Origin: Lentisphaerota bacterium
Lineage (GTDB): Bacteria > Verrucomicrobiota > Lentisphaeria > Victivallales > Victivallaceae
Assembly: GCA_015061625.1 (NCBI GenBank)
Contig: SUWG01000003.1
Coordinates: 1 to 64,000, forward strand
Direction: 5' to 3'
Length of the DNA stretch: 64,000 nt
Part shown: piece after piece, positions 1 to 64,000 of the stretch
Position numbering within the stretch: position 1 is the first letter of the stretch
Layout of the letters: the number at the start of each line of letters is the position of its first letter
The notes under the pieces: model-generated
Told to the model about the DNA's origin: nothing
Seen by the model: only the letters and a program-made list of their open reading frames with translations
Database searches by the model: none
Translations under genes and position numbers: made by a program

Positions 1-238
1 CCTGCGGCAAACATGAAGCACTTGCTTTGCAAGTATGATGCGGCGTATTTTTGTGAGCGGCACTCTCCGTATGTTTCCGTACACATCCGTACTGATCCGT
101 ACAAATAAAGCGTTTGAAAAAATCACTGCAGAGTTGTGAGGTGAGCACCAGCAATTCGATCAGCGTGAAGCCGTATGGCTTCATTCTCCGGGTGGAGAAT
201 GAATCTCTTGTCGATGCACCTGAAAAAAGTTTTTTCAT
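1..238 (-). CDS. Pseudopilin-like protein, N-terminal part only (continues beyond left edge); split leader [79 protein letters not shown]...
   Basis: Manual translation of the minus strand from ATG at 238, with AAAGGA upstream; prepilin-like GFTLIELLV motif; open to the window edge; not in the ORF track because it is truncated. Confidence 0.7.
   Translation of the reverse strand, partial: MKKLFSGASTRDSFSTRRMKPYGFTLIELLVLTSQLCSDFFKRFICTDQYGCVRKHTESAAHKNTPHHTCKASASCLPQ
66..101. repeat. Four TCCGTA hexamers with exact 10-bp spacing
   Basis: TCCGTA at 66, 76, 86, 96. Confidence 0.9.
166..203. repeat. Twin hairpin in pseudopilin leader codons
   Basis: TGAAGCC-GTAT-GGCTTCA overlapping TTCATTCTCC-GGGT-GGAGAATGAA. 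Confidence 0.88.
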
Positions 239-23647: not shown

Positions 23648-24445
23648 TTACAGAGTTTTGCTGTTGCCGCTGGCATCAAGCACGGTGAAGGTCTTGCTGG
23701 AATCCCAGTTCTTGATCGTGCCGCCGTCAACTGCTTCGGCGTGACCGTCGAGCATCGCTGTATTCATGCGGTCAGCATGACGGAGCATGAATTTCGCCGC
23801 CTGACCGGAAGCGATCGAAACACCTGAAGCTTTATAGAAGTAGCCGAATTGTCCCTGACCGATGGTATTGGTATTACTGTCACACTGGGAGTCTCCGACC
23901 AGCATGAACGTCGTGGAACTCTGGACTTTGCCGGTGTGAACTACCGTGGAAGAAACCACCGGCCCCTGGGCAAGTGCGCCGGATTCTGCTGTATAGCGGG
24001 GATGGGCACTGAAGTGATATGGCGCACCGTAACCGGCTTTGCCGAAGTTGTTGTTGGTCGTATTGGGCAGACCGCTCGGACAGTTTACCAGATCCAGATC
24101 CGTCGGCAGGTAGTCGCCTCTTTGACACCAGGTATTGTCAACTTTGGTTGCAAACATCGCACTTCCCCAACCGCGGTCGGTTTGGAACGCTAACACGATA
24201 ACGCCGTCATTGGCATCGCCGTATTGCTGAAACGCCATGCCGATCTGTTTCAAATTGTTGATACAACTGGCGGCACGGCCGCGTTCACGGGCGGAGTTGA
24301 GGGCAGGCAGCAAAATCGCCGCCAGAATGGCGATAATGGCGATCACGACCAGCAATTCGATCAGCGTGAAGCCGTACGGCTTCATTCTCTGTGCAGAGAA
24401 TGAATTACTTTTCACAAGGCACTGTTTCCGGGAACTTTTTTTCAT
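23648..24445 (-). CDS. Pseudopilin-like protein (prepilin-type N-terminal methylation/cleavage motif)
   Basis: [49 protein letters not shown]; start reset to ATG 24445 with AAAGGA. Confidence 0.88.
24367..24404. repeat. Twin palindrome in pseudopilin leader codons
   Basis: TGAAGCCGTACGGCTTCA (18-bp perfect palindrome) overlapping TTCATTCTCTG-TG-CAGAGAATGAA. Confidence 0.85.
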
Positions 24446-39549: not shown

Positions 39550-39591
39550 TTTACAAATGAGGATGGTATTTATGAAAAAGTCTGACAGTTT

Positions 39592-39659
39592 CCGCCATAG
39601 CGGAGTAAAGCACGAGTGCTTTACTCCGCCATAGCGGAGTAAAGCACGAGTGCTTTACT
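39592..39659. repeat. Two perfect tandem copies of CCGCCATAGCGGAGTAAAGCACGAGTGCTTTACT (34 bp), each a twin hairpin
   Basis: 39592-39625 and 39626-39659 identical by eye. Confidence 0.95.
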
Positions 39660-39771
39660 CTTATTGAACTTCTCGTAAGCACAGTTATCTCATCATTGCA
39701 TTTTTTGACACAAAAAACTGCGATTGAAACTAAACAAAGAATACCGCTTTTCTTGAAAAGAGAAGTGGGGT

Positions 39772-39829
39772 TTGGGGAGAGGGGAAAAACCTCTTTTCCC
39801 GTGAAAAGAAGTTTTTCCCCTCTTCCCAA
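39772..39829. repeat. 58-nt hairpin just upstream of the second FTLIELLV codons
   Basis: 27-nt arms TTGGGGAGAGGGGAAAAACCTCTTTTC / GAAAAGAAGTTTTTCCCCTCTTCCCAA, one mismatch plus one G-U, loop CCGT. Confidence 0.92.
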
Positions 39830-40624
39830 GAGCGCATTCACTTTGATAGAATTGCTGGTAGTCATTGCCATCATTGCGATCCTGGCGGCGATTTTGCTTC
39901 CGGCACTCAATTCTGCCAGAGAACGCGGCCGGGCCTCCGCTTGCATCAACAATCTCAAACAGATTGGCAATGCAGCCGGGATGTATGCGGATGATAACGA
40001 TCAGTATATGGCCGGATATTTTATCACTCCGACTTTGAAAAATCAGAATCAACGCTGGGTGGTAAGACTTTTTCAGTATACCGGAAGCAATCCGCACGTT
40101 TGGGTTTGTCCTTCGGCTCCGCAGATGGACAGCAAAGCCATGTCGGCATTGGATTCATCCGGCAGCGGTGATCTGGCAACCAATGATGCTTTGCGGAACA
40201 ATTTGAATCGCACCATCGGTTACGGTATCAATGCCTACGGCTGGCAGGGGATTTATGAAGTCAATGATACCGGATTGTGGGCGTTTCTCTGGTCGATGCA
40301 AAAGGTTGGCAAAATGGGCAATGCCAGCAGTCTGATCTACTCCGGAGATACCACGATCGACAATCAGAGTGATGAGGATTTTGCTCCGGAATCGGCCAAT
40401 AAAAATCAGGAGTATCTGCTCTGGTTTTCAGCCTCGGTTTATCCGACAAGCAGTATGAGTCTGCGTCCGGTACACAGCGGCAACAAGATGATTAATCTGC
40501 TGATGGCCGATGGTCATGTGGAAAATCAGAGTGATACCACTGTCAGAGGATGGGTTGCGGATGCGGCACAGAAAAAATTGCATTTTACGGTACAATAACT
40601 TAATCAAAAAAGAAAGGGGATTGT

Positions 40625-60509: not shown

Positions 60510-62807
60510 ATGTTTGTGGAAAACGAAAATTTCAAATATTACGCATTCATCAGTTATTCACGCAGCAATTCTGACGTGGTGGCATATCTGCACCGCAAAC
60601 TGGAACACTTCCGCATACCCCGGAAACTGTTGAAAAATGCTGAACGTTACGGTGCCGGGGGCCGTTTTCTGCGGCCGATTTTCCGTGACCGCCGGGATCT
60701 GGTCAATTCGGCGGGCAATTTCACCGAAGACATCAGAAATGCGCTGGAGCAATCCCGGTATCTGATCGTGCTTTGTTCACCGGAAGCGGCCAAATCGCAG
60801 TGGGTCAACAAGGAAGTGGAGTATTTTCTGGAAACTCACGGACAGGATTTTTCGCTGATCGTGCCGGTGATCCTCAATGGCACTCCCGGATGTGCCGGAG
60901 AAGATGAGTGTCTGCCTGTATCTTTGCTTGATCCCCGGATCACGCTGCGCAATCTGCCCTGTATGAAAGCCGATCCGGGTGAACCGGAAAAAAGCGGTTG
61001 GGAAAACGGCATTATTCAGGCCTTGAGTTACCTTCTTAAAGTCCGCCGGGAAAATATCCGGGCGGCGGTGGATGCGGAAAAGGTGCGTCTTTTCCGGATT
61101 TATGCGGTCATTGGCGGGGTGGCGGCACTTTTATTTTCCGGATTGACGGCGTGGGCGTTGTATGCCCAGTATCAGGCGGAATCTGCCCGTATTGTTGCTG
61201 AAACTGCCAGAGAGGAAGCGGAAACTGCCAGAGAAGAGGCTGAAACTGCCAGAGAGGAAGCTGAAACTGCCAGAGAGGAAGCTGAAACCGCCAAAGAGGA
61301 AGCGGAAACCGCCAAAGCAGAGGTATTGTCTGCGGAAGCAAAAGTAATGGATGCCGAAAATGAAACGGCCGTTGCCAGAACTGAAGTTATTGAACAGAGT
61401 AAGATCGCTTCATGGAGTATGTCATTTTTACACCGGATATTTTACGATGCCGGAGCGGATGAGCAGTATGATGCCGATACCCTCAGCAGTGACGGGGTGA
61501 AAGAGCGGATCGTGGATGCGATCAGTCAATCTGCGGGGGTTTCAAATTTGAATTTAGAGTGGAAAGATCAGGTTAATGTATATACTGATTTCGCTTTGAT
61601 GTTGAGCAGTTTCGGCGTTTTGGACAAGGCGCATGATTTCATTGAACAAGCTTGTAGGTTGTGTCAGGAAAATGCCCCGGATTCGCCGGAATTTTTGAAC
61701 TGCAGAAAATGGCTTGCGGTTATCAAGTGGCGCAGAGGTGAAACCGGTGAGGCATTGGCTATTCTGTTGGATACATTATCCGGGTGGAATCAGTTGAATC
61801 AGGATGGGGCGCATAACAACGAGATCATGCGGTTGAATAACCTTATCGGTTACGTTTATTTTGACCAGCGTGAATTTGAGAATGCACTCACATATCACCG
61901 GGCAGCATTGGCGTTGGCCGTTGCCGGTGAGAAAAAAGAGATTGCCGCCAGAACCAAAATTGCCATTGGTAATGCGCTTACCGGAAGCAAGAAGTACGAG
62001 GAGGCACTGGATAGTCTGAATGGGGCATTGGAACTTTTTAAGGAGTTGTACGGGGCAGAAGAGGCAGAAGAGGCAAGACCGTTGATTTTTGCGCGGATAT
62101 ATGCCTGTATGGCCAATGTGTATACCAGTTGCAATCAGACCGAAGAGGCCTACAGGTATGCGGAAAAGGCTTTGAGACTCCGGCAGGTTCACCTGGGCAA
62201 AGACAGTTTGGTGACGGCGACCAGTCTGGTGCAGTTCGGGTATATTCTTATGGTGACGCGCGGTGATTATGCAGCGGCGTTGGATTATGTGGAACAGGCG
62301 TTGCATACCCGTATCCGGCATTTCGGCGAAAACAGCCGGGCAGTGGCGAATTGTTACCGGATTCGGGGGGAGATCTATTTGAAAAAACGGGAATACCATC
62401 TGGCGGCAGAAGCCTTTCAAAAAGCGTTGGAAATATACAGGAGTATCCATAAGGATAAGGAGCATCCGGAGATTGATCAGTGTGAGTCAAAATATGAAAA
62501 TGCGGTGACTTTGAGCGGCACTGCCGGTGGCATGGGGATGGAAAATATCCCGTCGGTATCAGGCAGTTCCGGCAGTTCTCAAGGAGGAATTTCCGAATCC
62601 ACTTCTGTCAGCGCTCCGGAAACCACTTCAGAAACCACTTCGGAAACCACTTCGGAAACCACTTCGGAAACCACTTCGGAAACCACTTCGGAAACCACTT
62701 CGGAAACCACTCCGGAAACTTCTCCTGAAACCATGCCTGAAACCACGCCTGAAACCACGCCTGAAACCACGCCTGAAACCACGCCTGAAACCACTCCGGG
62801 AACTTGA
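60510..62807 (+). CDS. TIR-domain protein: TIR - TM helix - heptad coiled coil - TPR - Thr/Glu repeat tail
   Basis: YAFISYSRSNSDVVAYLHRKLEHFRIP...FRDRRDLVNSAGNFTEDIRNALEQSRYLIVLCSPEAAKSQWVNKEVEYF; TM IYAVIGGVAALLFSGLTAWALYA; TPRs; start at ATG 60510. Confidence 0.85.
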   Translation: MFVENENFKYYAFISYSRSNSDVVAYLHRKLEHFRIPRKLLKNAERYGAGGRFLRPIFRDRRDLVNSAGNFTEDIRNALEQSRYLIVLCSPEAAKSQWVNKEVEYFLETHGQDFSLIVPVILNGTPGCAGEDECLPVSLLDPRITLRNLPCMKADPGEPEKSGWENGIIQALSYLLKVRRENIRAAVDAEKVRLFRIYAVIGGVAALLFSGLTAWALYAQYQAESARIVAETAREEAETAREEAETAREEAETAREEAETAKEEAETAKAEVLSAEAKVMDAENETAVARTEVIEQSKIASWSMSFLHRIFYDAGADEQYDADTLSSDGVKERIVDAISQSAGVSNLNLEWKDQVNVYTDFALMLSSFGVLDKAHDFIEQACRLCQENAPDSPEFLNCRKWLAVIKWRRGETGEALAILLDTLSGWNQLNQDGAHNNEIMRLNNLIGYVYFDQREFENALTYHRAALALAVAGEKKEIAARTKIAIGNALTGSKKYEEALDSLNGALELFKELYGAEEAEEARPLIFARIYACMANVYTSCNQTEEAYRYAEKALRLRQVHLGKDSLVTATSLVQFGYILMVTRGDYAAALDYVEQALHTRIRHFGENSRAVANCYRIRGEIYLKKREYHLAAEAFQKALEIYRSIHKDKEHPEIDQCESKYENAVTLSGTAGGMGMENIPSVSGSSGSSQGGISESTSVSAPETTSETTSETTSETTSETTSETTSETTSETTPETSPETMPETTPETTPETTPETTPETTPGT
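61197..61322 (+). repeat. Six 21-bp repeats encoding (AETAREE)n coiled-coil heptads
   Basis: 126 nt = 6 x 21; AETAREE x4, AETAKEE, AETAKAE. Confidence 0.9.
62619..62798 (+). repeat. 12-bp repeats GAAACCACTTCG / GAAACCACGCCT encoding ETTS/ETTP tail
   Basis: About 15 copies; terminates the TIR protein. Confidence 0.93.
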
Positions 62808-62946: not shown

Positions 62947-64000
62947 ATGACAAAACTCCACCATGGTGGAGTAAGGCAGTACTGCCTTACTCTCAAAAGA
63001 TGCTTCACCGCATTGTTTCTGACCGTCTTTCTGGCGGCGGGTATTCCATTTACCCTTAAAGGTGAAACTCCGTTATTCAAGAACGGAAACTTTGCGGAAA
63101 AAAGTTCCCGCGGTCTGCCGCTTTTCTGGCGGGTCCGGGCCAAGGATGTGAGCAACATCCAAATCTTTGAAACTGACAAGGGCAATGCGGTGCGGATGTG
63201 TCCGCAGGCCGGGGAAATGATGTTCCTCATCCAGTATCCCCAGTTTCAGCAGCGCGGCGTGCGTTACAAGGTGACTTATGAGGTGCGCAGTGCCAAAAAT
63301 ACTCCGCACCGGGTCTATCTGGAGTGGCGTGATGAATTCGGCAAGCTCAAATGCAATGACGGTTCATGGAGCATGACCACTGACCAGTGGCAGGAGCAGA
63401 GTTTTATTTTTCTGCTGCCGGAAAAATCCACCGGCGGTTATCTGGTTTTGAGTCCGGAAGCCGGCGGCGAAGTCGAATTCCGCAATATCCGCTTTGAACT
63501 TACCGATGATACCAACTTGCTGAAAAACCCGAATTTCTTTTTCCGCGGTTCCAATGGCAAATTCAAATCCTGGCAGTTGATCGCCGGTGAATCGATCACC
63601 TCTGAAAACGGCATCATGACCCTTACGCCGAAAGGCGATGCGGCGGCGGTGCTTGCCCAGTGGGATATTCTGGTCGTTCCCGGCCGCAGATACAAAATCT
63701 CGGCGGAAGTGCGCGGAAAGAGTGCCGGTCAGTACCGTATTTACACCGAGTGGCGCATTCCCGATCCGGCCAAACCCAACGAAAAGGGCCGTCTTTCCTC
63801 CTACGGCGGTTACTGGCGCAGTGTCGGCACCGAGTGGAAACAGGAAACGTTTTTCGTGACCATTCCGGAAAATGCCCGTGGAGCCTATATGGTCATCGGC
63901 GCGCGCCGTACCGGATTTGTGCAGTTCCGCAATGTCCGTATCGAGGAAGTTGAGCCGGAAGTCATCCCGCAGGAAGCCTCGGTCGGCGGCGGCAGATGGG
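62947..64000 (+). CDS. Secreted protein with repeated carbohydrate-binding-like beta-sandwich domains (5' part, runs off right edge)
   Basis: Manual translation MTKLHHGGVRQYCLTLKRCFTALFLTVFLAAGIPFTLKGETPLFKNGNFAEKS... open to window end; two similar domains (LFKNGNF.../LLKNPNFFF...). Confidence 0.7.
   Translation, partial: MTKLHHGGVRQYCLTLKRCFTALFLTVFLAAGIPFTLKGETPLFKNGNFAEKSSRGLPLFWRVRAKDVSNIQIFETDKGNAVRMCPQAGEMMFLIQYPQFQQRGVRYKVTYEVRSAKNTPHRVYLEWRDEFGKLKCNDGSWSMTTDQWQEQSFIFLLPEKSTGGYLVLSPEAGGEVEFRNIRFELTDDTNLLKNPNFFFRGSNGKFKSWQLIAGESITSENGIMTLTPKGDAAAVLAQWDILVVPGRRYKISAEVRGKSAGQYRIYTEWRIPDPAKPNEKGRLSSYGGYWRSVGTEWKQETFFVTIPENARGAYMVIGARRTGFVQFRNVRIEEVEPEVIPQEASVGGGRW
62956..62992. repeat. 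Twin palindrome in N-terminal codons
   Basis: CTCCACCATGGTGGAG (16-bp perfect) overlapping GAGTAAGGCAGTACTGCCTTACTC (24-bp perfect). Confidence 0.95.

Follow-up and report, generated by a model that had tools for sequence, protein, structure and literature searches.

A twin palindrome in the leader of a secreted-protein gene

The window, by which we mean the whole 64-kb stretch of DNA analysed here, ends within a gene on the + strand that occupies 62947..64000 and runs on to contig position 66390. This host gene encodes a secreted protein of 1147 aa, which is not a pilin and has CBM_4_9 and Bac_rhamnosid_N domains, and is followed on its 3' side by a DUF1559 pilin gene and then by an alpha-L-rhamnosidase gene. 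The preceding gene (781 aa) has a long ETT(S/P)ETT run at its end, which is encoded by a 12-nt tandem repeat (62600-62807).

Translation of the host gene starts at the ATG at 62947, with a GAGGG ribosome-binding site ahead. As a preliminary description of this DNA had reported, two palindromes are present between the start codon and the core of the signal peptide: dyad 1, CTCCACCATGGTGGAG, is a perfect palindrome at 62956-62971, and dyad 2, GAGTAAGGCAGTACTGCCTTACTC, is located at 62969-62992, a GAG being common to both. Both dyads lie inside the open frame. The leader translation, MTKLHHGGVRQYCLTL followed by KRCFTALFLTVFLAAG, was checked and was correct. The right arm of dyad 2 consists of the codons C-L-T-L, where pilins have C-F-T-L. 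The two dyads together form the twin element. A covariance model, R1, built from 54 prepilin copies of class A (defined below) with the window copy left out, matched it over 62952..62992 (+ strand) with a score of 50.5 bits and a within-window E of 4.6e-16.

Copies in the window, the genome and the phylum

A two-stem descriptor gave five matches in the window against 0.08 expected, and none of 100 shuffles reached five. When the window was scanned without regard to sequence for pairs of dyads spaced 17 nt, only four places came up, at ~0.19, 24.4, 39.6, and 62.96 kb, whereas the same scan at eleven other spacings (12-16 and 18-23 nt) gave 0-1 matches each. The three further places were found by both the free dyad scan and R1. 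The one at 39586..39660 (+ strand) lies before a DUF1559 pilin gene, and its parallel with the window copy, noticed in the preliminary description, is real; two identical units stand there in tandem at a distance of 34 nt. The start codon of this pilin gene (39572) is out of frame, and a stop in the pilin frame is found at 39606-39608; its sole close ortholog (G272:C4) ends at a contig edge. The copy at 24364..24404 (- strand), before a prepilin FTLIELLV, has equal geometry with other arms (TTCATTCTCTG/CAGAGAATGAA, then GAAGCCGTACGGCTTC), and that at 163..203 (- strand), before a prepilin motif, has the same geometry and class as the copy at 24.4 kb.

The source genome is a 2.7-Mb draft of 44 contigs, about 91% complete, and the other genomes compared are also draft assemblies. 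The prepilin N-terminus had 74 matches in the source genome, and upstream of them the layout X - l1 - X' - l2 - X recurs. The final X, which forms the right arm in pilin copies, coincides with the F-T-L codons of the cleavage motif FTLIELLV; X' is its reverse complement, and each of l1 and l2 is nearly palindromic in itself. Relative to the F codon, the centres of the two dyads cluster at -22.5 and -5.5, at the spacing of 17 nt. Two classes were distinguished, class A with TTTACTC/GAGTAAA and class B with TTCA/TGAA, the middle of the latter being usually GCCCATGGGC.

A genome search with R1, in which 150 of 1105 candidates were scored, gave 71 matches at 38 sites including the window copy (E=1.9e-14). 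By prepilin positions, 37 of the 38 sites precede prepilin motifs, and the 38th, the window gene, is the only non-pilin found; R1 is based on class A and scored class B weakly, and non-pilin copies of class B could be missed at 150 of 1105 candidates. The occurrence in a non-pilin gene noted earlier is confirmed, but the general statement that the element is not restricted to pilins is not supported in that form, as it rests on this one site among the 38. One of the 37 prepilin sites is a pilin remnant (L041, G000:C22:25937), in which a deletion starting within dyad 2 takes out the FTLIELLV codons, suggesting the palindrome as a breakage point.

Among the pilin genes studied, a sizeable minority are without the element. 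It is found in most genomes of the genus, and a fixed-geometry pattern run over 243 genomes of the phylum was strong in the genus and rare elsewhere. An exact-pattern scan of viral contigs gave no match, and our literature search found no paper on a twin-palindrome element. In G053, which belongs to another family, several pilin genes open with GTGAAAACAAGAGTTTTCACC, which is palindromic across the F-T codons and may include a GTG start; this may be independent or due to chance.

Origin of the window leader

The closest homologs of the host protein (G000:C22:9880, G074, G053, and G022) are ~26-29% identical and start with plain signal peptides, for example MRKFLVLLTVLSAAFTVAA. Because of these starts, MTKLHHGGVRQYCLTL, a block of 16 residues ending where the remote homologs begin, is regarded as an addition at the N-terminus; its 16 codons (62947..62994, + strand) hold the element. 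The preliminary description had taken a clean insertion relative to homologs without this extension as the sign of mobility, and an extension shared by all homologs, with conserved DNA sequence, as the sign of ordinary ancestry; the remote homologs lack it, and the shared extension was not seen. These comparisons support insertion or leader capture, by which a carbohydrate-binding protein would have acquired a pilin-type leader ahead of its signal peptide through insertion or recombination.

Under leader capture, the host gene would simply have obtained its 5' end, from the ribosome-binding site through the start codon to the leader, from a pilin gene by ordinary recombination, and the element would not itself be mobile. 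Another contig carries a pilin gene (G000:C22:24114) with a 32-nt match of 97%, which extends 4 nt 5' of the host start codon, and a pilin gene adjoins the host gene. However, the match stops short of the promoter, and the unit closest overall to the window copy (L217), with 4 differences in the last 36 positions, belongs to another species. Between L217 and the window copy, two adjacent pairs are each changed on both sides. Capture of the promoter itself from the pilin gene was rejected, since the similarity to G000:C22:24114 stops 4 nt before the start codon. Leader capture is, in our judgement, a serious possibility that falls short of an even chance; it covers only the arrival of the window copy, and it is compatible with the explanation that we prefer, a palindrome kept up at the DNA level.

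Free arm sequence and strict complementarity

Among 216 unique prepilin sites, mostly of the source genus, both dyads were present in 88. Core pairs in these prepilin leaders comprised 1054 Watson-Crick, 5 G-T, and 8 other combinations (1067 cells), counted on one dyad at sites chosen on the other, with a cut of 5/7 pairs remaining. The sequence of the arms was free, as 75 distinct 10-nt left arms were found in 93 copies of dyad 1, and the letters conserved across copies were mainly the F-T-L codons and their complement. X' mirrors the local F-T-L codons, synonymous differences included. In the 54 class-A units, 96.3% of cells pair, compared with 73.6% when shuffled and 37-47% when slid, and the covariation score was 0.622 versus 0.171, with 173 cells changed on both sides. 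The differences between the orthologs L276/L025 (bodies 91% identical) and between L191/L076 (92%) are double-sided pair changes, few ortholog pairs being at hand. The inversion of spacers that template switching should leave behind gave only a weak signal: dyad 2 had 4 loop pairs in reverse complement (p=0.011), compared with 2 pairs in the complement control, and dyad 1 had none.

The window copy provides an informal test of this complementarity, as F is not needed in a non-pilin gene. The first base pair of the F codon is A-T in 54 of 54 class-A pilin units and G-C in the window copy; relative to those units, TTT is changed to CTT and AAA to AAG, so both sides are altered. Arm complementarity is thus held here without the pilin constraint.

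The strict maintenance of complementarity, together with the location just after the start codon, would also fit a cis-acting RNA, in which two mutually exclusive hairpins at the coding 5' end control translation of the pilins and of the window protein. The RNA fold of the window copy (z = -3.3) agrees with such control, and its MFE and centroid structures divide the common GAG differently. RNA helices under selection, however, normally pass via G-U states (PMC8794818), which in the core are no commoner than other mismatches (5 versus 8 of 1067). G-U states being scarce in the arms, the constraint therefore acts on DNA, unlike that on selected RNA helices. Furthermore, in 54 of 92 copies of dyad 1 perfect symmetry continues right to the centre, which a hairpin does not need, and the element is missing from the minority of pilin genes mentioned above. 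We therefore consider an RNA element unlikely, and a reading by RNA only was rejected for want of G-U tolerance in the core pairs. The absence of a G-U state speaks for templating of the DNA itself, by template switching, rather than for selection of an RNA helix; templating at the level of DNA is well supported, and we infer that template switching between the arms is the likeliest upkeep of their complementarity.

Leader modules and exchange of units

The prepilin leader is removed at maturation, and its protein sequence is therefore free to change. Two other leader modules, M and C, are each enclosed by a pair of FTLIELLV copies, and orthologs differ in whether they have them; the prepilin leader thus gathers in-frame DNA, which would be expected of a sequence cleaved off at maturation. 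In the window, module M (39654..39836, + strand) is a separate inserted module of about 60 aa, ending in PKSA, with its own imperfect hairpin between the two motifs. It occurs in many pilin genes (L078, L097, L166, and others), and differs in presence between the 93%-identical orthologs L277 and L097. Module C is an array of small hairpins with GCTTCA separators (L190, L194, L196, and L201 in G008; L092 and L104 in G000), and at its end a palindrome lies over the FTLIE codons (TCGATCAGCG followed by TTYACGCTGATCGA).

Between the orthologs L258/L019 and L270/L029 (bodies about 80% identical), the whole unit was replaced. Such swaps, the presence or absence of modules M and C, the in-frame positions, the occurrence in one unrelated gene, and the extension missing from remote homologs could all be produced by a selfish MITE-like element comparable to the Rickettsia palindromic elements (RPEs), inserted in frame by an unknown enzyme acting in trans where a leader tolerates it. 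However, such an enzyme would have no common sequence to recognise, as the arms differ in almost every copy, and X' follows the local F-T-L codons down to synonymous differences. Moreover, 37 of the 38 sites from the R1 search (150 of 1105 candidates scored) are of one kind, exchange between orthologs fits gene conversion among paralogs, and a search for a Y1 transposase (PF01797; REP/RAYT or IS200) gave no match in the source genome, which is about 91% complete. An origin from REP/RAYT was rejected on the last ground. The mobility proposed in the preliminary description is only partly supported; we regard a MITE-like element as distinctly unlikely.

Tandem units and the reading frame

In 12 genes from six species, two near-identical units were found, always exactly 34 nt apart. 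The start codon with a ribosome-binding site was off frame by one in all 12, and taking out 34 nt (one unit) restored the frame in every case, whereas about 102 of 106 single-unit genes were in frame (Fisher p about 7e-13, one of the tandem genes also entering the single-unit count). In addition, a TAA or TGA derived from X' of the first unit stands in the pilin frame 48 nt upstream in 12/12, and no ATG, GTG, or TTG is present in the pilin frame in 8/12. The downstream pilin frames of these genes are open for 159 to >300 codons where the contig allows.

Since 34 = 3n+1, duplication of the unit shifts the start codon out of frame and puts the TAA or TGA of X' in the pilin frame. An off-frame start, a stop at -48, and a restorable frame together imply that two units should silence the gene; that duplication switches the gene off is accordingly a strong prediction from sequence. 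Reversible use as a switch may follow, in which case a duplicated gene would stay off until one unit is lost; the tandem genes could also be recent dead alleles.

A site for a structure-recognised recombinase, like an integron attC recognised by its fold and not its letters, which would exchange pilin leaders or add and remove 34-nt units, agrees with conserved geometry in free sequence, units exactly 34 nt apart, and whole-unit exchange between orthologs, but is very improbable because no recombinase was linked to the element in this analysis, the perfect symmetry is without the strand-marking unpaired bases of attC, and the flanking direct repeats suffice for tandem duplication with no special enzyme.

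Proposed mechanism and significance

Template switching is reported to homogenise the arms of inverted repeats (PMC8604942) and to give double changes without a G-U step (PMC8794818). In the twin palindrome, template switching during replication (quasipalindrome correction) would rewrite both arms at once, and most likely keeps them complementary in this way. The 34-nt unit duplicates repeatedly, as observed in 12 cases, probably because direct repeats of X flank the hairpins. Taken together, we give about even chances to the view that the element is a twin palindrome acting at the DNA level, neither an RNA helix nor a classical transposon, kept up by template switching, shifting the frame on duplication, and captured by or inserted into the window leader. 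Template switching alone does not explain the fixed 17-nt spacing.

More tentatively, and with odds that we consider rather against it, the element may be a self-templating switch of free sequence and fixed geometry, which copies the codons of the processing motif, creates a frameshift and a stop by 34-nt duplication so that members of the pilin family are turned on and off independently, and also settles before other secreted proteins.

The analysis adds to the preliminary description that the right arm corresponds to the F-T-L codons of the prepilin motif, that arm sequences may vary freely, and that the reading frame is shifted in copies with two units. Structure is here cleanly parted from sequence, dozens of paralogs having exact palindromes with few common letters, and such paralogs offer a direct test of whether palindromes can persist through evolution by template switching alone. 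If the frame switch is true, a large pilin family is under many independent on/off switches built of palindromes. The prepilin leader, which is discarded, would also offer in-frame DNA elements a natural place to land, with spill-over into other secreted proteins such as that of the window gene.

Comparison with known systems

Structured cis-regulatory RNAs share strong covariation with the twin palindrome but tolerate G-U pairs, and attC sites have unpaired bases marking the strand, whereas the core arms here are fully paired. REPs are likewise short palindromes with many copies per genome; they are mostly extragenic, conserve their letters, and depend on a Y1 transposase, in contrast to the twin palindrome, whose genome, at about 91% completeness, gave no Y1 match. 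RPEs resemble it as palindromic DNA in frame within protein-coding genes; they are ~150 bp long and form sequence families with a conserved peptide in unrelated genes (PMC10969869). The twin-palindrome unit, by contrast, is 34 nt, free in sequence, and bound to one position of one gene family. The conserved sequence or termini of RPEs and MITEs were not found among its left arms, and the spread over unrelated genes amounts to one non-pilin in 38 sites, with extension-free homologs about 28% identical. In the mitochondria of Nematomorpha, perfect inverted repeats of up to 284 bp lie in coding sequence and both arms encode conserved protein (PMC6649704); in the short, twinned unit described here, the right arm alone is constrained by protein.

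Contingency loci, in which tandem repeats cause phase variation by going out of frame, are similar in that a change in repeat number alters the reading frame of a gene for a surface structure, as unit number does in 12 of 12 two-unit genes. In duplications of pneumococcal capsule genes, for example, a change in repeat number shifts the reading frame. Here the repeated unit, a twin palindrome of 34 nt, itself supplies the in-frame stop when it is duplicated, and the switching is predicted from sequence.

Inverted repeats homogenised by template switching (quasipalindromes) show the same perfect arms, changing letters, and double-sided changes without G-U (PMC8794818, PMC8604942). Arms changed together between close orthologs were likewise seen here, in the few pairs L276/L025 and L191/L076. 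The described template-switch cases are, to our knowledge, scattered events, whereas in the twin palindrome one geometry recurs in dozens of paralogs and many species, abutting a fixed protein motif.
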